Shown: positions 19,198 to 26,759, numbered from the stretch's first letter. The stretch: 64,000 nt of DNA from Alphaproteobacteria bacterium (GCA_017445475.1 JAFSUB010000025.1:1-64000), one strand, 5' to 3'. The notes: generated from the sequence alone by a model not told the origin. A program made the numbers and translations.

Positions 19198-21888
19198 ATG
19201 GCCAAACAACAATCTGACGCAACACCTTCCGTAAAACAATATCTCGACATAAAAAAGGAATATGAACAATACCTTCTTTTTTATCGTATGGGCGATTTTT
19301 ACGAGCTTTTTTTTGAAGACGCCTTTGCTGCTTCAAAGGCTTTAGATTTGGTTCTCACAAAGCGCGGCACATATATGGGCAAAGACATTCCGATGTGCGG
19401 TGTGCCGTTTCATGCTTATGAAAACTATCTGGCGCGCCTCATACACCAAGGCTTCAAAGTTGCCATTTGCGAACAGATGGAAACCCCCGATGAGGCCAAA
19501 AAACGCGGCAAATCCTTGGTTTCAAGAGAGGTTGTGCGCATTGTAACTGCCGGAACTTTAACCGAAGACAATATGCTAAACCCTCGCGAAAACAACTATC
19601 TTTTAAGCATTTTCAAAAAAGAAAATATGCTCGGCTTTGCGTGGATAGACATCTCGACAGGTCAATTTTGCACAAAATCGGTCAACTCCGATTTTTATTC
19701 GTTTGCCGCCGATATTTATAACGTGCTTTCAAAAATTGAGCCGAGCGAAATTATTGTTTCTGACGAGTTGCTCACGCTTTCCGAAATTTTTCGTGTTTTA
19801 AACATTTATCAAGACAGGCGAACCGTTTTGCCCAAAGAGCGTTTCAACACGCAAAACGCCGCTTTGCTGATTAAAAAAGTTTTCGGTATTGACAGTTTAG
19901 ATTCGTTCGGTGCGTTTGAAGATGTTGAAATTTCAGCTGCCGGCATTGTTTTGGAATACATCGAAAACACCCAAAAGGGGCAAATGCCGCGCATCAATCC
20001 TCCCGTGCGTCAAAACAGCAACAACAGCCTTGAAATAGACGTTGCAACGCGCAAAAATTTAGAGCTTTTGGTCGGTGCGGACGGCAGCAAAAAAAATTCG
20101 CTTCTCGGCACAATCGATGAAACCATCACATCTTCCGGCGCAAGGCTTTTCAAACAGCGCCTGATATATCCGTCGATTGATGAAAAAGAAATCAACAGCC
20201 GCTTAAATTGTGTTGAATTTTTTATCTCGTGTGATGATTTGGGGGCAGATTTTCGCGCGCTCTTAAAAGATGTCAGCGATATGCAACGCATCATAACGCG
20301 CTTATCTGCTTCAAGAGGCGGCCCGAAAGATATGCTGGCCCTTAAAATTTCTTTGTCGTGCGTGCCGAAAATCAAAAATATGATATACAATGCCGCCGCT
20401 TCAAATTCTTTAATCACCGGCCTTGTGCAAGACGTTAAAAACATTTTAGATAAAATGGCTGATTTTTCCGCATTGGTTGACAATTTGGAAAATGCCATCA
20501 TCGACAATCCGCTCACCTTGCCTTCAAATCCGAAAGACGGCGGTTTCGTCAAATATGGTTACAGCGCCGTGCTTGATTCATATCGCGACATCGGCCAAAA
20601 CCACGCGCAAACCATCAAACAAATGGAAGCGCAATACACCAAAGAGCTCAACATTTCAAGCCTTAAAATTAAATACAACAACATGATAGGCTATTACATC
20701 GAAGTTCCGAACAAGTTTGTTGACACGGTTGTTCAAAACAACAAATTCATACATCGGCAAACGGTTTTAAACGCGATGCGTTTCACAACCGTTGAACTTT
20801 CCGAACTTGAGCAACAAATCAATGTTTCGCAAAACAAAATTTTAGAAACCGAACTTCAAATATATCAAGACTTAACACGCCAGATTTTAAGTGCGGCAAC
20901 CGAAATTTCTCAAACAGCGATGTGCATCGGTGAGCTTGACATTGCCGCCGCCGGCGCCCACATCGCGCTTTCAAAAAATTACACACGCCCGATTGTCGAT
21001 TCATCTCTTGAATTCGAAATCAAAGAAGGACGCCACCCTGTTGTGGAAGCGGCACTCAAAAAGAATAACGAGGCTTCTTTTGTCAGCAATGATTGCCTGC
21101 TCAACGTCAAGACAAACCGACTTTGGCTCTTAACCGGTCCGAACATGGCCGGAAAATCGACCTTTTTGCGCCAAAACGCCATCATCGCCATCATGGCGCA
21201 GATGGGTTTTTATGTGCCGGCCGCAGCGGCGCGCATCGGCATCATCGACAAGCTTTTTTCGCGCGTCGGCGCCTCCGACGATTTGTCGCAAGGACGCTCA
21301 ACGTTTATGGTTGAAATGGTCGAAACCGCCGCTATTTTAAACCAATCCACACCAAAATCGTTTGTCATTTTAGATGAAATCGGACGCGGCACGGCAACCT
21401 ACGACGGCTTGTCGATTGCATGGTCTGTGGTTGAATATTTGCACGAGGTCAACAAATGCCGCGCACTTTTTGCAACCCACTATCACGAGCTCACGGTTTT
21501 AAGCCAAAAACTCAAAGCGCTCACGTTGCACGCCATGAAAATTAAAGAATATCAGGGCAGTGTCGTGTTTATGCACGAAGTGGTGGACGGCACGGCAGAT
21601 CGCTCATACGGCATACACGTTGCCGAACTTGCCGGCCTGCCGAAAGTTGTCATCAAACGTGCCGAACAGGTTTTAAAAACGCTCGAAAAAAATCCGAACA
21701 GTCAAAAAATAACGTCTATTGAAAATGATTTACCGCTTTTTGCAAATCTGCAACAAAGCCTTAACAAGCAGGAAGACGAACCGCTCATTAAAGCCTTAAA
21801 AGACCTCAATCCCGACAACCTCACCCCGCGTGAAGCTTTAGACAAGCTCTACGAGCTTAAACTTTTGTCCAAGGGTTATAAAGATTGA
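19198..21888 (+). CDS. mutS: DNA mismatch repair protein MutS
   Basis: MutS recognises mismatches and starts repair. The 896-residue product is complete. The mismatch-binding F-x-E is in YRMGDFYELFFEDA near residue 38, and connector, core and clamp domains follow. The ATPase has GPNMAGKSTFLRQ, FMVEMVETAAIL, FVILDEIGRGT and ATHYHEL. The C-terminal helix-turn-helix dimerisation region ends with LTPREALDKLYELKLLSKG. The last 152 bp (21737-21888) are repeated with about 10 % divergence at 26196-26347, beyond a minus-strand island, so this copy's 3' end may have been exchanged. Confidence 0.97.
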   Translation: MAKQQSDATPSVKQYLDIKKEYEQYLLFYRMGDFYELFFEDAFAASKALDLVLTKRGTYMGKDIPMCGVPFHAYENYLARLIHQGFKVAICEQMETPDEAKKRGKSLVSREVVRIVTAGTLTEDNMLNPRENNYLLSIFKKENMLGFAWIDISTGQFCTKSVNSDFYSFAADIYNVLSKIEPSEIIVSDELLTLSEIFRVLNIYQDRRTVLPKERFNTQNAALLIKKVFGIDSLDSFGAFEDVEISAAGIVLEYIENTQKGQMPRINPPVRQNSNNSLEIDVATRKNLELLVGADGSKKNSLLGTIDETITSSGARLFKQRLIYPSIDEKEINSRLNCVEFFISCDDLGADFRALLKDVSDMQRIITRLSASRGGPKDMLALKISLSCVPKIKNMIYNAAASNSLITGLVQDVKNILDKMADFSALVDNLENAIIDNPLTLPSNPKDGGFVKYGYSAVLDSYRDIGQNHAQTIKQMEAQYTKELNISSLKIKYNNMIGYYIEVPNKFVDTVVQNNKFIHRQTVLNAMRFTTVELSELEQQINVSQNKILETELQIYQDLTRQILSAATEISQTAMCIGELDIAAAGAHIALSKNYTRPIVDSSLEFEIKEGRHPVVEAALKKNNEASFVSNDCLLNVKTNRLWLLTGPNMAGKSTFLRQNAIIAIMAQMGFYVPAAAARIGIIDKLFSRVGASDDLSQGRSTFMVEMVETAAILNQSTPKSFVILDEIGRGTATYDGLSIAWSVVEYLHEVNKCRALFATHYHELTVLSQKLKALTLHAMKIKEYQGSVVFMHEVVDGTADRSYGIHVAELAGLPKVVIKRAEQVLKTLEKNPNSQKITSIENDLPLFANLQQSLNKQEDEPLIKALKDLNPDNLTPREALDKLYELKLLSKGYKD
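21737..21888 (+). repeat. Direct repeat left copy (mutS 3' end)
   Basis: The last 152 bp of mutS, stop included, align without gaps to 26196-26347 with a constant offset of 4459 bp. I counted about 15 differences by eye, many at third codon positions. The homology starts abruptly at the TTTTTGCAAAT stretch on both sides. This direct repeat frames the island. Confidence 0.9.
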
Positions 21889-21906
21889 TCCCTCACATCG
21901 CCTTTT

Positions 21907-23538
21907 TCACCGATGTTCGGATATGTTTTTTTGTTCTTCTTGATAATAACGATTGACAATATCTCTGTCATAAGCCTGTATGCGTCCGGAAGGAAGCATT
22001 AACATCCTGTCTATTTTAAAATCGCTTAAAAAATCCAAATCATGAGACACCATCAAAATTGTGCCTTTATAATCTTTTAAGGCATCGGCCAATATTTTTT
22101 TTGTAACTAAGTCTAAATGGTTTGTCGGTTCATCAAGCAACATCAGATTAGGCTTTTTGACACATAACTTTAAAAGAGCAAGACGCCTTCTTTCTCCGGG
22201 TGATAATGTTTTAACTTCCTGAAAGACCTTGTCTCCCGAAAAATTAAACCGCCCCAAAATGCTTCGAATTTGTTTTTCGGTATATTGCGGATTAGCAACT
22301 TCATCGATAACACGGTTAAAATCTGAGATGTTTTCCTGCTCTTGCGCATAATAGCCGATAATTGCTTTATTCCAAATATTTATACTGCCTCTTTGAGGCG
22401 TGAGTATACCGTTAATAAGTTTTAAAAGCGTGGTTTTTCCGGCACCGTTTTTACCCACAATAATAAATCTCTCATTCGGATAAACAGAAAAATCTATATT
22501 TTTTAAAACAGCATGGTTCCCATACGAAAAAAACAAACCGGAAACATTCAACGGAGATTTTTCCGTCTGAATTTGAACGTCAAATGAAATTTTTGCTTTT
22601 TTAGATTTTTGAGGCACGACAACCATATCGGCTTTCATTTTTTCCAGCATTTTTTCACGACTTTGCGCCTGTTTTTTCCTTTTGCCCGAAGAACCTTCCG
22701 CTTTTTGAATAAAAGCTTCTGCTTTTTCAATTTTTTTCATCTGATTTCGAAATGTTTTTAATAAATATTCATCTCTCAGCGCGATAATATCCAAAAATTC
22801 CTCATACGTATTTGAAAACAGTTCTGCCGTTTTATCTTGATCGTTAATCAATAAAATTTTATTTGCCGTTTTCCGTAAATATTCTTCATCGTGTGAAACG
22901 GAAATGACAGCACCTTTATAGCTGTTAATATATCCCATAATCCAATCTTTGGTTGCCCTATCAAGGTGATTTGTCGGCTCATCAAGCAAAAGCACATCTG
23001 GATTAGCGTATAATAATTGCGCAAAAGCAACGCGTGATTTTTGACCTCCGGATAATTCTTTTAATTGAGAATCCAATACTTCGTCAAGACCACAACCTTG
23101 CGCCAATTTGCTAATATCCGCCTCAATGGTATATCCGCCCTGTTGCTCAAAAAGACTTTGAAACTCCTCTATCTTGGCATATAAAACTTCCTTTTCTTTA
23201 TCCGATATATTCGGTTGAGATAACATTTCATAAGCTTGGGTTGTTTTATTTTCAATATCTTTAAGATGGCGGCCTCTTGCAATAAATTCAAAGACGGTAT
23301 CTTCCGAAAATTGCATATCTATTTCCTGCTTCAACCAGCCTGTGTTTTTAAAACCGCCGACCAGCTCTATACTTCCTTCATAGTCAGTTTCACCAAGGAT
23401 AGCCTTCAGAAGGGTGGTCTTTCCGGCGCCGTTGTTCCCGATAATTGCCAAATGATCCTTTTCTCCCACGGAAAAAGAGACGTCCTTAAAAATTAAATCA
23501 GCGCCATAATATTTAGTTAAATCTGTTACAATTAACAT
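21907..23538 (-). CDS. ABC-F family ATPase
   Basis: The 543-residue protein has two ABC cassettes and no membrane segment, the ABC-F plan (EttA, Uup, and antibiotic-resistance types). Cassette 1 has Walker A GNNGAGKTT (34-42), signature LSGGQKSR and LLLDEPTNHLD. A charged linker of roughly 80 residues follows (including KKIEKAEAFIQKAEGSSGKRKKQ), the P-site-reaching element. Cassette 2 has GKNGAGKTT, LSPGERRR and LLDEPTNHLD. ABC-F proteins act on the ribosome; some displace antibiotics. The ATG overlaps the upstream maturase gene by 26 bp, with GAGG ahead of it, so it is co-expressed. A self-protection role is inferred from this context. It could also be a housekeeping translation factor. Confidence 0.9.
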   Translation of the reverse strand: MLIVTDLTKYYGADLIFKDVSFSVGEKDHLAIIGNNGAGKTTLLKAILGETDYEGSIELVGGFKNTGWLKQEIDMQFSEDTVFEFIARGRHLKDIENKTTQAYEMLSQPNISDKEKEVLYAKIEEFQSLFEQQGGYTIEADISKLAQGCGLDEVLDSQLKELSGGQKSRVAFAQLLYANPDVLLLDEPTNHLDRATKDWIMGYINSYKGAVISVSHDEEYLRKTANKILLINDQDKTAELFSNTYEEFLDIIALRDEYLLKTFRNQMKKIEKAEAFIQKAEGSSGKRKKQAQSREKMLEKMKADMVVVPQKSKKAKISFDVQIQTEKSPLNVSGLFFSYGNHAVLKNIDFSVYPNERFIIVGKNGAGKTTLLKLINGILTPQRGSINIWNKAIIGYYAQEQENISDFNRVIDEVANPQYTEKQIRSILGRFNFSGDKVFQEVKTLSPGERRRLALLKLCVKKPNLMLLDEPTNHLDLVTKKILADALKDYKGTILMVSHDLDFLSDFKIDRMLMLPSGRIQAYDRDIVNRYYQEEQKNISEHR

Positions 23539-24850
23539 CGCTTTTTTCCTCTAGATAATTTCTGGGATTAAAATATTTCTTCATAATGTTTTTCAGCCAC
23601 TTGCAGTAATGCAAATCAATGGTTTCGAATTTTTGATGTCTGAACCAAGCGCTCGCGACACATCCGGCACCACAAAACGCGATGTATTTGCATTTTAAAC
23701 ATTTTTCATGATTAAATCTGCTGTAATTTTTCCAATACCGGATATTGTTTAATCGACTCAACCCTGTCGATACGCTCCCTATCACAGCCCTGTCACAATC
23801 CGAAATGGCTTGACACGCCAATATTTTTCCGTCAGGAAACACCGTCATTTTTCGTGAAATTCCGCAAGATTGTTTGACAATGCTGAAATTTTTAATTGTC
23901 TTGAAAAGAGCGTCTATCGCATCATCTGAAGCACCCAGCGCGGATGTTTTATGATTACATTCAATCATTTGTTTTGCGGCATCTTTCGGATAATTGCTGA
24001 TTGGTTGTTTGCCTAAGTCAATCAACAAATTCATGCCATAGTGCTTTAGTTTATATTTTTTGCACAGTTGGGAAATTAGCTTGGGTAATTGCGGCAAATT
24101 ATCATTCGTAACGGTGATAAGAGGCAAAACGTCTATATCGTTTTTAATCAGATTGTTTAATCCCTTTATTGTTTTTGCATAACTTCCTTGCCCTGTAGCA
24201 AAAACACGGTTTTTATCGTGAATATTTTTGTTGCCGTCAATAGAAAGCTGCACCTGCACATGATTCTCTTTTGCCCAGTTTATAACAGCCTGATTAATCA
24301 AAACGCCGTTTGTATTGATAACTAATTGCGTTTTGGGCGATAGTTTATTTTCCGATTTTAGTTTCTGAATATAATCTGTCGTTTTTTGAATGCAATCAAA
24401 ATTAATTAAAGGTTCTCCCCCGTAAAAAGTTATCTGAGAAAACCAATCTTGCGATTGTTCATTTTTATTCTGTTTTTCCACAAAGAGATCCAAGGCTTTT
24501 TGGGCGGTATCAAAAGACATTTTTGTATGTTGTAAGTGTTGGGTATTTTGGTAAAAACAATATTTACAAGCCAAATTACAACGATTTGTCATAATTAAAA
24601 ATAAGTTGTTAAAGCCATCATCGGATATTTCATTTTTTGTTTTTAACAACAGTTGATTATCTTGTGCTTCGGTTGTCATAAAATGCGATTTAATTAACTC
24701 GAGCATTTCAGGATTGTTTGTTTTTTCTATGGCCGGATTTTCTTTCAGTTGCCGATATAAATCATCGGACACCTTTACTGATTTTCCCAGTAAAGAATGC
24801 CAAAGAAAATTATTTTTCAACAAAAACACAAATCTTGATTTGTGCAACAT
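23513..24850 (-). CDS. Radical SAM/SPASM peptide maturase
   Basis: The 445-residue enzyme has an N-terminal part of about 85 residues (LKNNFLWHSLLGKSVKVSDDLY) like that of peptide-modifying radical SAM enzymes. The radical SAM core has CX3CX2C at C91, C95 and C98 (RCNLACKYCFY), plus FYGGEPLIN and INTNGVL. A complete SPASM domain follows for two auxiliary 4Fe-4S clusters: C329-x16-C346, then C384, C387, C393, C397 (CX2CX5CX3C) and C416. I start it at ATG 24850; an in-frame TTG at 24880 would sit in a hairpin. It follows a 24-codon cationic peptide gene by 50 bp and overlaps ABC-F. It probably modifies that peptide; the bond formed cannot be predicted. Confidence 0.88.
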   Translation of the reverse strand: MLHKSRFVFLLKNNFLWHSLLGKSVKVSDDLYRQLKENPAIEKTNNPEMLELIKSHFMTTEAQDNQLLLKTKNEISDDGFNNLFLIMTNRCNLACKYCFYQNTQHLQHTKMSFDTAQKALDLFVEKQNKNEQSQDWFSQITFYGGEPLINFDCIQKTTDYIQKLKSENKLSPKTQLVINTNGVLINQAVINWAKENHVQVQLSIDGNKNIHDKNRVFATGQGSYAKTIKGLNNLIKNDIDVLPLITVTNDNLPQLPKLISQLCKKYKLKHYGMNLLIDLGKQPISNYPKDAAKQMIECNHKTSALGASDDAIDALFKTIKNFSIVKQSCGISRKMTVFPDGKILACQAISDCDRAVIGSVSTGLSRLNNIRYWKNYSRFNHEKCLKCKYIAFCGAGCVASAWFRHQKFETIDLHYCKWLKNIMKKYFNPRNYLEEKSDVNCNRFN

Positions 24851-24869
24851 AACAGACTCACAGAAGAAT

Positions 24870-24892
24870 GTCTGGCACAAAATGTGCCAGAC
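24870..24892 (-). promoter_or_regulatory. Hairpin between peptide gene and maturase gene
   Basis: A perfect 10-bp inverted repeat (GTCTGGCACA and its complement) encloses three bases. It lies 8 bp after the peptide stop and 19 bp before the maturase ATG. On the minus strand it is followed by ATTCTTCTG, a weak T-rich tail. It could be a leaky terminator or an RNA-stabilising hairpin that lets the peptide be made in excess over the enzymes, as is common in RiPP operons. Confidence 0.65.
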
Positions 24893-24900
24893 ACATTAAT

Positions 24901-24975
24901 TTAACCCTTTCTGCAGTTATATCTGATACTACTCTTAGAAATAGCTGCTATTCTTTTTTTAAATAACTTTTTCAT
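24901..24975 (-). CDS. Candidate precursor peptide of a radical SAM RiPP (24 aa)
   Basis: This short reading frame sits between the two radical SAM genes on the same strand. A strong ribosome-binding site, GGAAAGGG at 24983-24990, lies 7 bases before the ATG. The peptide has six Lys, three Arg and no acidic residue, so about +9 net charge. Its N-terminal part is amphipathic-looking (MKKLFKKRIAAI). The C-terminal part has Ser13, Ser15, Ser16, Tyr19, Asn20 and one Cys21, ending Arg-Lys-Gly. I do not recognise a known RiPP family. Coding status rests on the ribosome-binding site, position and the following hairpin. It would be small enough to be active without leader removal, or the leader may be the Lys-rich part. 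It may also be a chance frame. Confidence 0.62.
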   Translation of the reverse strand: MKKLFKKRIAAISKSSIRYNCRKG

Positions 24976-25008
24976 ACAATAACCCTTTCCACATTTAAAT
25001 TTAAAACA

Positions 25009-25025
25009 ACTTGGCATAACCAAGT
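25009..25025 (-). terminator. Weak hairpin between radical SAM gene 1 and peptide gene
   Basis: A 6-bp stem (ACTTGG/CCAAGT) with a 5-base loop is followed on the minus strand by TTGTTTT. It lies 3 bp after the stop of the upstream radical SAM gene and about 34 bp before the peptide start. It could partly terminate or mark an RNA-processing point. Readthrough to the peptide is still expected because no clear promoter lies between. Confidence 0.4.
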
Positions 25026-25028
25026 ATC

Positions 25029-26108
25029 CTACTCACCCTGAGCAGAATCTCTTAAAGCATACTCCGGAAATTTCCCCAACTCGTAAACTTTCTGACAAAA
25101 CGGATCCGGAGCATATATATCGCCGTAAGCCGCCATCGCATGAACGCGGCAACCGCCACGGCAAATCTTTTTAGCAAGACATTTGGCACAGACACCTTTT
25201 AATTTGTTACAATTATAATTTTTGAAGAATTTAGCTTGTTCACTGTTACACCATATATCTTTAAGCGACTGATTCTTTAGATTTCCGAAGGTAAAAATTT
25301 CGTTTCCGGAACGATTATGGCAAAGGCTGACAAGACCGTCATAACTAATTCCAAGGCTGTTTTTTCCCCAAGGGCACAGCATAAAATTTTCAATATCAAA
25401 AGGAACCAAAGCAACATTAACGCTAACAGAAATATCCTTATCTTTATGCTTTCTCATAAAATCATACATAAAATTTTGCAATACGTCATCAATGTCGGCA
25501 TAAGGAACTTCCAGCTTGATACAATTACAACTATCTTTTGTTTCCTGCTCCAAAATCGAGGGTAACAATCTAAATCCGACACCCAATTCCTCAACAAAAT
25601 ATCTCGCCATCGCCGGAATCTGATCTTTGTTAAATTGCTGCATAACCGTATTCACTCTGACTCTGAGGTCAGATTTAATCAAAGCTTTAAGCGCCAACAT
25701 GGTTTTATCAAAAGTTCCTTTGCCTCTGATTTTTTCATGGGTTTCTTTGTTTATTCCATCAACACTGAAAGCAACTCTGAGTTTTGAACCATATTGTTTC
25801 AGTTTTTCTATGTCTTTTTGTGTCAGCAAAACACCGTTTGTTTCAATGTTGATTTTATATCCCAAATCAAAGGCGCCGTCTAGTAGCTCGAAACAATCTT
25901 TACGAACAAATATTTCCCCACCCGTAATGTTCACAGAAGTAGCACCCAACTCTCTGGCCTCTTCTAGGGCCTTTATAAAACAAGAAACCGGCAATTCATC
26001 TTTCTGGGTATTATTGCTAAAACCATAACCGCAATGAATGCAATTTAAATTACACCTACTGCAAAAAAATATGGAAACAAAGTCCAATCTATCTTTTAAT
26101 GGAATCAT
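25029..26108 (-). CDS. Radical SAM/SPASM enzyme (PqqE/AlbA-like)
   Basis: The 359-residue enzyme has the radical SAM motif at C19, C23 and C26 (CNLNCIHC), then TGGEIFVRKDC and NIETNGVL. The SPASM domain is complete: C245-x17-C263 (PWGKNSLGISYDGLVSL between), C307, C310, C316 and C320 (CX2CX5CX3C), and C338. It has no N-terminal recognition domain, unlike the second enzyme of the cluster. It is the first gene of the operon, with a ribosome-binding site AGGCGGA ahead of the ATG. Two different SPASM enzymes in one short operon suggest two successive modifications or an enzyme and its helper. The substrate is inferred to be the small peptide. Confidence 0.88.
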   Translation of the reverse strand: MIPLKDRLDFVSIFFCSRCNLNCIHCGYGFSNNTQKDELPVSCFIKALEEARELGATSVNITGGEIFVRKDCFELLDGAFDLGYKINIETNGVLLTQKDIEKLKQYGSKLRVAFSVDGINKETHEKIRGKGTFDKTMLALKALIKSDLRVRVNTVMQQFNKDQIPAMARYFVEELGVGFRLLPSILEQETKDSCNCIKLEVPYADIDDVLQNFMYDFMRKHKDKDISVSVNVALVPFDIENFMLCPWGKNSLGISYDGLVSLCHNRSGNEIFTFGNLKNQSLKDIWCNSEQAKFFKNYNCNKLKGVCAKCLAKKICRGGCRVHAMAAYGDIYAPDPFCQKVYELGKFPEYALRDSAQGE

Positions 26109-26130
26109 CGTCCGCCTTCTTTCTTGCTTA

Positions 26131-26158
26131 AGTGTATTTTAAAAAATACAAATGTCAA
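26131..26158 (-). promoter_or_regulatory. Promoter of the radical SAM/ABC-F operon
   Basis: On the minus strand a perfect -35 TTGACA (26153-26158) is followed after 16 bp by TACACT (26131-26136, four of six matches to the -10 consensus). Transcription would start near 26124, about 16 bp upstream of the first radical SAM ATG. The promoter lies inside the island, so the cargo carries its own expression signal. Confidence 0.65.
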
Positions 26159-26195
26159 GCACTTTTGTTTTTCAATATTGTTTCGACATCTCCGG

Positions 26196-26347
26196 TTTTT
26201 GCAAATTTGCAACAAAGCCTCAACAAGCAGGAAGACGAACCGCTCATTAAAGCCTTAAAAGACCTCAATCCCGACAATCTGACCCCGCGTGAAGCTCTGG
26301 ACAAGCTATACGAGCTTAAAGTTCTGGCCAAAGGCTATAAAAACTAA
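26196..26347 (+). pseudogene. Duplicated 3' fragment of mutS (direct repeat right copy)
   Basis: These 152 bp encode the last residues of MutS (ANLQQSLNKQEDEPLIKALK and on to the stop) in the same orientation as mutS. They are about 90 % identical to 21737-21888. No promoter, ribosome-binding site or MutS domain accompanies them, so this is a remnant and not a gene. It marks the right end of the island and overlaps the TRL-like gene's stop by 4 bp. It may be the original chromosomal end of mutS displaced by the incoming DNA. Confidence 0.88.
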
Positions 26348-26628
26348 TATCCGTATACATTAAGACAACGTCTGCGATATAAAATATAATTTTTGGAGGT
26401 TATGTCGTAATACGTAACTTTTGTCACGCCGCCGACAGTTGCCGCTTCGGGAATAGACAGATTTCCGAACGGGCCAAAAATCCCTAAAATATACAAAGCG
26501 CATTGCGTGCCCGATTTATTACCCATTTCAATCGGGTTTTTGGCTTTTGTTCTCATCGGTGGAATAGAGCTTGTCGCGCACGAAGAAAGAACAAAAACAA
26601 GCAAACAAACGGAAAAACATTTTTTCAC
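26344..26628 (-). CDS. TRL-like lipoprotein
   Basis: The 94-residue form starts at GTG with GGAGA 8 bases upstream; a longer frame would run into the tRNA gene and is not real. It begins VKKCFSVCLLVFVLSSCATS, a lipoprotein signal with lipobox LSSC. The mature part contains GTQCALYILGIFGPFGNLSIPEAA and GGVTKVTYYDI in shortened view, typical of the TRL-like family of small envelope proteins. TRL was named for a tRNA-linked locus, and this gene indeed lies next to tRNA-Pro. Function is unknown. Confidence 0.75.
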   Translation of the reverse strand: MKKCFSVCLLVFVLSSCATSSIPPMRTKAKNPIEMGNKSGTQCALYILGIFGPFGNLSIPEAATVGGVTKVTYYDITSKNYILYRRRCLNVYGY

Positions 26629-26682
26629 GAAAAAATCTCCATTTTTTTCAATCACATACAAGCCGCATATTATGTTATGAAA

Positions 26683-26759
26683 TGGTCGGGACAAGAGGAC
26701 TTGAACCTCCGACATCTTGCTCCCAAAGCAAGCGCTCTACCAGGCTGAGCTATGTCCCG
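26683..26759 (-). tRNA. tRNA-Pro (TGG)
   Basis: The minus strand folds into a 77-nt cloverleaf. Acceptor CGGGACA pairs with the 3' end TGTCCCG, and a D-arm AGCTCAGCCTGGTAGAGC is present. The anticodon stem CTTGC/GCAAG encloses TTTGGGA (anticodon TGG). The T-arm is GGAGGTTCAAGTCCTCT. The CCA end is encoded. It is separate from map by 67 bp. Confidence 0.95.

Follow-up and report, generated by a model that had tools for sequence, protein, structure and literature searches.

The PapB-type ranthipeptide and SCIFF (CteB) maturases combine an N-terminal extension, a radical SAM (rSAM) core and a seven-cysteine SPASM spacing, and rSAM B of the locus described here is built in the same way. A precedent for the joint maturation of RiPP precursors by a pair of rSAM enzymes is thuricin CD (PMC12093266). 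Two different rSAM enzymes serve each peptide unit in thuricin CD (TrnC/TrnD), the His-Xaa-Ser system (HxsB/C) and SynChlorMet (ScmE/F), as they would here. To our knowledge, none of these two-maturase RiPPs is associated with an ABC-F protein, and no described rSAM RiPP with an ABC-F was found in the open-access literature that we searched. Among ABC-F proteins, PoxtA is a phenicol and oxazolidinone resistance factor. Unlike the PapB and SCIFF systems, the present cassette adds a second, dissimilar rSAM enzyme and an ABC-F to its ranthipeptide-like maturase, and its candidate precursor is not of the SCIFF type.

The cassette belongs to a bacterium with a small genome, and the window, the whole 64,000-nucleotide stretch of DNA that was analysed, includes both of its flanks (Table 1). 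Four genes form one minus-strand operon of ~4.2 kb in the order rSAM A, short basic frame, rSAM B and ABC-F; all four frames were found at the position, on the strand and in the order that an earlier note on this DNA had given. That note had also described two different SPASM enzymes, an insertion at mutS and the absence of exporter, protease and regulator genes. Both enzymes indeed carry a CxxxCxxC motif and a seven-cysteine SPASM pattern, the 3′ end of the DNA-repair gene mutS is present on both sides of the cassette, and no gene of those three kinds lies within it. Our analysis adds four features: the duplicated mutS tail, the low GC, a hairpin behind the stop codon of the peptide and the relation of the ABC-F to PoxtA. 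The operon is tight except for a gap of 178 nt between rSAM A and rSAM B. rSAM B and the ABC-F have an overlap of 26 nt, lie on one strand and share a low GC, and they therefore look like one unit. The self-contained promoter of the earlier note exists as a site that agrees with the consensus at 10 of 12 positions, although chance alone accounts for about as many sites of this kind (17 observed, 14.8 ± 3.9 in shuffles). An Rfam search over the sequence gave only the tRNA-Pro described below above threshold. A role in anti-phage defence was rejected, as the PADLOC matches (viperin at 75 bits, ABC ATPases) are of a generic kind.

Table 1. Features of the cassette and its flanks, in window coordinates
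Feature	Position	Strand	Description
mutS 3′ end, proximal copy	21733..21889	+	completes intact mutS; direct repeat
ABC-F ATPase	21907..23538	-	543 aa; PoxtA-like
rSAM B	23513..24850	-	445 aa from ATG; ranthipeptide/SCIFF-type radical SAM/SPASM maturase
Hairpin	24868..24894	-	perfect 12-bp GTGTCTGGCACA-TTT-TGTGCCAGACAT, directly past peptide stop
Candidate precursor peptide	~24902-25017	-	38 aa, MPSCFKFKCGKGYCMKKLFKKRIAAISKSSIRYNCRKG, or 24 aa from inner ATG near 24975
rSAM A	25029..26108	-	359 aa; radical SAM/SPASM enzyme; no N-terminal extension ahead of core
Sigma-70-like promoter TTGACA-16-TACACT	26131..26158	-	~22 nt ahead of rSAM A; consensus scan
mutS 3′ end, distal orphan copy	26192..26348	+	~51 codons; 90% identical to proximal copy

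rSAM A matches the Pfam models Radical_SAM (PF04055, 86.5 bits) and SPASM (PF13186, 44.7 bits), and holds the radical SAM motif C19NLNC23IHC26 and seven SPASM cysteines (C245..C263..C307-x2-C310-x5-C316-x3-C320-x17-C338). Its best NCBIfam matches are AhbD (142.3 bits), ScmF (133.1), PqqE (128.5) and NirJ (125), and none of the cut-offs of its matches, which span 381-515 (AhbD 500, ScmF 400, PqqE 381), is reached. The best PDB match is PqqE (6c8v, E=4e-18). rSAM B matches Radical_SAM at 54.3 bits with the motif C91NLAC95KYC98. It has no match to the SPASM model, and its SPASM region is recognised by cysteine spacing alone (C329-x16-C346...C384-x2-C387-x5-C393-x3-C397-x18-C416). The best NCBIfam matches of rSAM B, mostly peptide maturases and chiefly thioether-forming, are PapB (178.2 bits; NF047865, cut-off 340), CcpM (154), FibroRumin (142.8; TIGR04136, cut-off 400), SCIFF (132; cut-off 425), HxsB (122; cut-off 370) and CefB (122; NF038107, cut-off 600), while 5wgg is the best PDB match (E=2.5e-27). 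rSAM B thus stays below the PapB, FibroRumin and CefB cut-offs, although it aligns with the FibroRumin and CefB maturases over nearly its whole length; the cassette peptide matches none of the NCBIfam models, those of these systems included. The kinship to known two-maturase systems is likewise weak, both between ScmF and rSAM A (133 of 400 bits) and between HxsB and rSAM B. Because each enzyme falls below the cut-off of every NCBIfam model listed, both are orphans of a known superfamily. Since the CxxxCxxC motif and the seven-cysteine SPASM spacing, which belongs to a domain for two auxiliary clusters, are kept, both look catalytically intact.

rSAM B has ~80 residues N-terminal to its radical SAM core. 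A clostridial-maturase profile aligns with the enzyme over residues 1-444 (E 3e-65), while the match of residues 15-42 to the N-terminal part of those maturases is weak (E 0.001, probability 21%). Because the N-terminal part alone matches weakly, an RRE in rSAM B is plausible only, and the extension may be called RRE-like in a weak sense. A single-sequence structure prediction of rSAM B (pLDDT 39.6) was set aside.

The earlier note had placed a tiny cationic peptide between the two enzymes. A basic frame does lie in the gap between them and is plausible as a peptide gene, but its occurrence is only modestly above chance in shuffles. The 38-aa frame has cysteines at positions 4, 9, 14 and 35; the first three are spaced by five as in Cys-every-fifth (CefB) peptides, which may be chance. 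The 24-aa frame from the inner ATG, MKKLFKKRIAAISKSSIRYNCRKG, has a charge of +9. Ribosome-binding-site-like motifs (AGGA/AAGG-like) stand upstream of both candidate starts. When the 178-nt gap was shuffled 2000 times with its dinucleotide composition kept, 17% of the shuffles contained an ATG frame of 24 aa or longer, 3.4% contained one that also had a ribosome-binding-site-like motif, and 1.7% contained a frame of 38 aa or longer; no shuffle gave a frame with both such a motif and a charge of +9. The peptide matches no NCBIfam or Pfam model, RiPP family models included. The hairpin past its stop is terminator-like (-19.5 kcal/mol, z = -6.9) and is possibly an attenuator or a processing site. 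A mobile REP-like hairpin family is ruled out, since the hairpin core occurs once in the genome. Taken together, the motif, the rarity in shuffles, the charge and the hairpin make it likely, judging from sequence, that the short frame is a real gene. The precursor peptide is nevertheless the weak link of a RiPP reading, with no homologue to support it.

The ABC-F consists of two ABC domains (ABC_tran, PF00005, 187.9 bits, two stretches) joined by an ABC_tran_Xtn linker (PF12848, 46.7 bits), and has no membrane domain. It passes the 'ribosomal protection-like ABC-F' model NF000355 with 398.6 bits (cut-off 380), the type that the earlier note had assigned to it. Among solved structures, PoxtA (7p7q, 336 bits) is the nearest by a wide margin (YbiT 245), and it is also the nearest plasmid protein, at 38% identity. 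In a 28-row tree with one PoxtA row, where both branches are long, the cassette ABC-F and PoxtA2 are sisters (support 100/97), and they stay so (100/99) in a smaller set without the other long rows. Like PoxtA, it has no long C-terminal extension, and the two are nearly equal in length (544 aa in PoxtA), while clostridial relatives reach ~640 aa through that extension. Its linker of 144 residues is 4 residues shorter than that of PoxtA (148) and differs by 2-7 residues from the forms that are not resistance factors (137-142; EttA 137, YbiT 140). The linker of PoxtA itself is short but able to perturb the P-site tRNA, and linker length is therefore not decisive for the role of the ABC-F (PMC8987054). 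Unlike PoxtA, the cassette protein has no linked drug and stands in an rSAM operon instead of on a resistance plasmid. The genome has two other ABC-F matches (30-32% identity) that are common to its genus, and the cassette ABC-F is extra to them.

The cassette has a GC of 36% and a GC3 of 33-36%, low against the nearby genes (GC 41-47%, GC3 41-52%), a composition that sets it apart as foreign. On either side lies one copy of a direct repeat made up of the final 157 nt of mutS. A similar arrangement, an intact target with an orphan 3′ tail on the far side, is left by integrative elements that rebuild the 3′ end of the gene they enter. Unlike such elements, the cassette holds no integrase or relaxase, nor a transposase, and tails of 157 nt with 90% identity point to homologous recombination. 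The duplication of the mutS 3′ end on both flanks thus suggests a homology-assisted insertion in which no integrase was involved. The likely route of entry would be homologous recombination through this mutS 3′-end homology, with the cassette coming from a close relative in which it was already present. Between the two tails, 10 of the 15 listed codon changes are synonymous and 13 of the 16 differences inside the repeat sit in the last 24 codons, a pattern which, in a small sample and with a breakpoint picked post hoc, would suit another functional mutS allele with a mid-tail crossover more than the decay of an idle copy.

Two candidate explanations of the site were rejected. The mutS tail does not appear to be a recurrent integration site of the family: in a search of 126 family genomes, a second mutS tail turned up in none of the 125 others, aside from two (G001 and G027) whose second tails look like contig breaks within mutS. 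A tRNA as the insertion target was set aside as well, because the tRNA-Pro (TGG, 26683-26759) lies ~0.3 kb past the distal tail and a search of 16 mutS loci in relatives gave no tRNA. Directly past the distal tail is a gene for a TRL-like small protein (26344-26715; PF13146, 39 bits). The tRNA-Pro, on the same strand, overlaps its listed start, and the true start is therefore probably further in. Upstream of mutS lies a gene for a sulfatase-family protein (PF00884, 15787-17571), and a genus relative has a second sulfatase-family copy, 34% identical, directly downstream of mutS (L041:6872-8590).

We tentatively favour, at somewhat less than an even chance, the reading that this is a horizontally acquired minimal RiPP cassette whose ABC-F would provide ribosome-protecting immunity against the peptide product. 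The RiPP pathway is suggested by the intact radical SAM motifs and complete SPASM cysteines of both enzymes, by the peptide maturases that prevail among the best matches of rSAM B, and by the basic frame, ribosome-binding-site-like motif and unique hairpin within the gap. The immunity role is suggested by the ribosomal-protection match of the ABC-F, its sister position to PoxtA and its presence in addition to the genus-shared ABC-Fs, and horizontal acquisition by the low GC and the flanking duplication. Against this reading stand the lack of a homologous cluster, and hence of any peptide conservation, in our searches, the peptide without a RiPP family match, a cassette without exporter or protease, the linker shorter than that of PoxtA and the long branches of both PoxtA and the ABC-F. 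It is credible though doubtful that the cassette represents a novel type of RiPP, with a ribosome-targeting peptide that would be built by two SPASM enzymes unrelated to each other and a PoxtA-like ABC-F that would serve in self-protection. The earlier note had found no known RiPP type to fit, which agrees with neither enzyme reaching any listed family model.

According to the favoured RiPP reading, a short precursor rich in Cys and Lys/Arg would be translated between the maturase genes from its own ribosome-binding site, and the strong hairpin past its stop may set the expression of the precursor against that of the genes downstream. rSAM B, from the thioether-forming ranthipeptide/SCIFF lineage, might dock the precursor through its N-terminal RRE-like region and join precursor cysteines to neighbouring residues, and rSAM A would add a second modification. 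The peptide product would act on or close to the peptidyl-transferase centre or the exit tunnel of the ribosome, and the PoxtA-like ABC-F would free the producer's stalled ribosomes. Host proteins encoded outside the cassette would remove the leader and export the peptide.

The product of the enzymes could instead be a small cofactor, or their substrate a host protein, with the short frame arising by chance or as a regulatory leader around the hairpin. rSAM A is about equally close to the cofactor enzymes AhbD, PqqE and NirJ, the rarity of the frame by length and motif is only ~2-3%, and no conservation was seen. However, rSAM B falls among the peptide maturases, no other cofactor gene is present and no shuffle yields a motif-bearing frame of such charge, so that we regard this alternative as rather unlikely. 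If the RiPP pathway is real, the ABC-F might still be a translation helper for a very basic precursor (KKLFKKR) or other hard stretches, not an immunity protein. This would suit the +9 held in the 24 residues of the inner frame and a linker near housekeeping length, and the housekeeping ABC-F YkpA/YbiT aids B. subtilis in translating charged stretches (PMC11381351). That study used runs of ten residues, next to which the short pairs of basic residues here give a weak signal for stalling, and the nearest kin of the ABC-F is the resistance factor PoxtA, not YbiT; a helper role is therefore quite unlikely.

The overlap, common strand and shared low GC of rSAM B and the ABC-F also argue against an arrival in which a PoxtA-type antibiotic-resistance ABC-F merely rides with an unrelated two-rSAM pathway, and PoxtA itself is only 38% identical to the cassette protein. 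We consider such a double arrival improbable, although the mobility of PoxtA genes is evident (matches at E<=1e-60 in 557 plasmid records, including 246 from Enterococcus, with the best annotated poxtA) and the ABC-F, being the last gene, could be an add-on. Cargo that arrived in one transfer and is decaying or without function would agree with the presence of the cassette in one genome only among those searched. Its three long frames are intact, however, and the catalytic motifs are kept, which makes this explanation very improbable.

If the reading of a RiPP cassette with ABC-F immunity is true, a peptide built by rSAM enzymes would act on the ribosome with an ABC-F as protection, both maturases would belong to undescribed families, and RiPP self-immunity would be indicated as one possible source of PoxtA-like resistance factors. 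If the cassette is in addition a new RiPP type, PoxtA-type resistance factors would gain a natural role as RiPP immunity proteins. Should the tie of a PoxtA-like ABC-F to an operon for an rSAM peptide prove functional, it would be striking, and the cassette is small enough to be tested whole in a laboratory strain.

No second cassette was found in the sampled genomes (152 of the family, ~400 of the class, ~400 of the phylum and 391 Clostridia) or in the plasmid, phage, IMG/VR and GTDB collections. Three pattern-scan matches on GTDB contigs were rejected, each being an unrelated gene or a remote rSAM enzyme. Because the pattern scans detect close relatives only and the genome searches are samples, the results establish that the cassette is rare rather than unique, and with no second copy found we infer its function. 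rSAM B is absent from the other 151 family genomes at E<=1e-30. In the 391 Clostridia it meets remote maturases only, the best at 24-30% identity along most of the protein or at 43% across 166 residues, and its nearest clostridial relatives share 22-43% identity. At 16 clostridial rSAM B loci, no A-like partner separate from B was found. rSAM A has three matches at E<=1e-30 in 399 phylum genomes, one being itself and the others at 32% identity. In 231 Clostridia it has one match at E<=1e-33 (33%), with an ordinary ABC transporter gene adjoining and no separate B. Plasmids, phages and IMG/VR gave no close relatives; the best plasmid match of rSAM A, an rSAM of R. etli p42d (29%), was discarded, having no second rSAM or ABC-F alongside. 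At one of the 16 clostridial loci (L100:335-3490), a SCIFF peptide and its maturase are followed on the same strand by a full-length ABC-F after a gap of ~90 nt, an adjacency compatible with chance. In L089 (6176-6561), two Cys-rich short frames stand just ahead of the best-scoring clostridial relative of rSAM B and are possibly precursors of another undescribed system.
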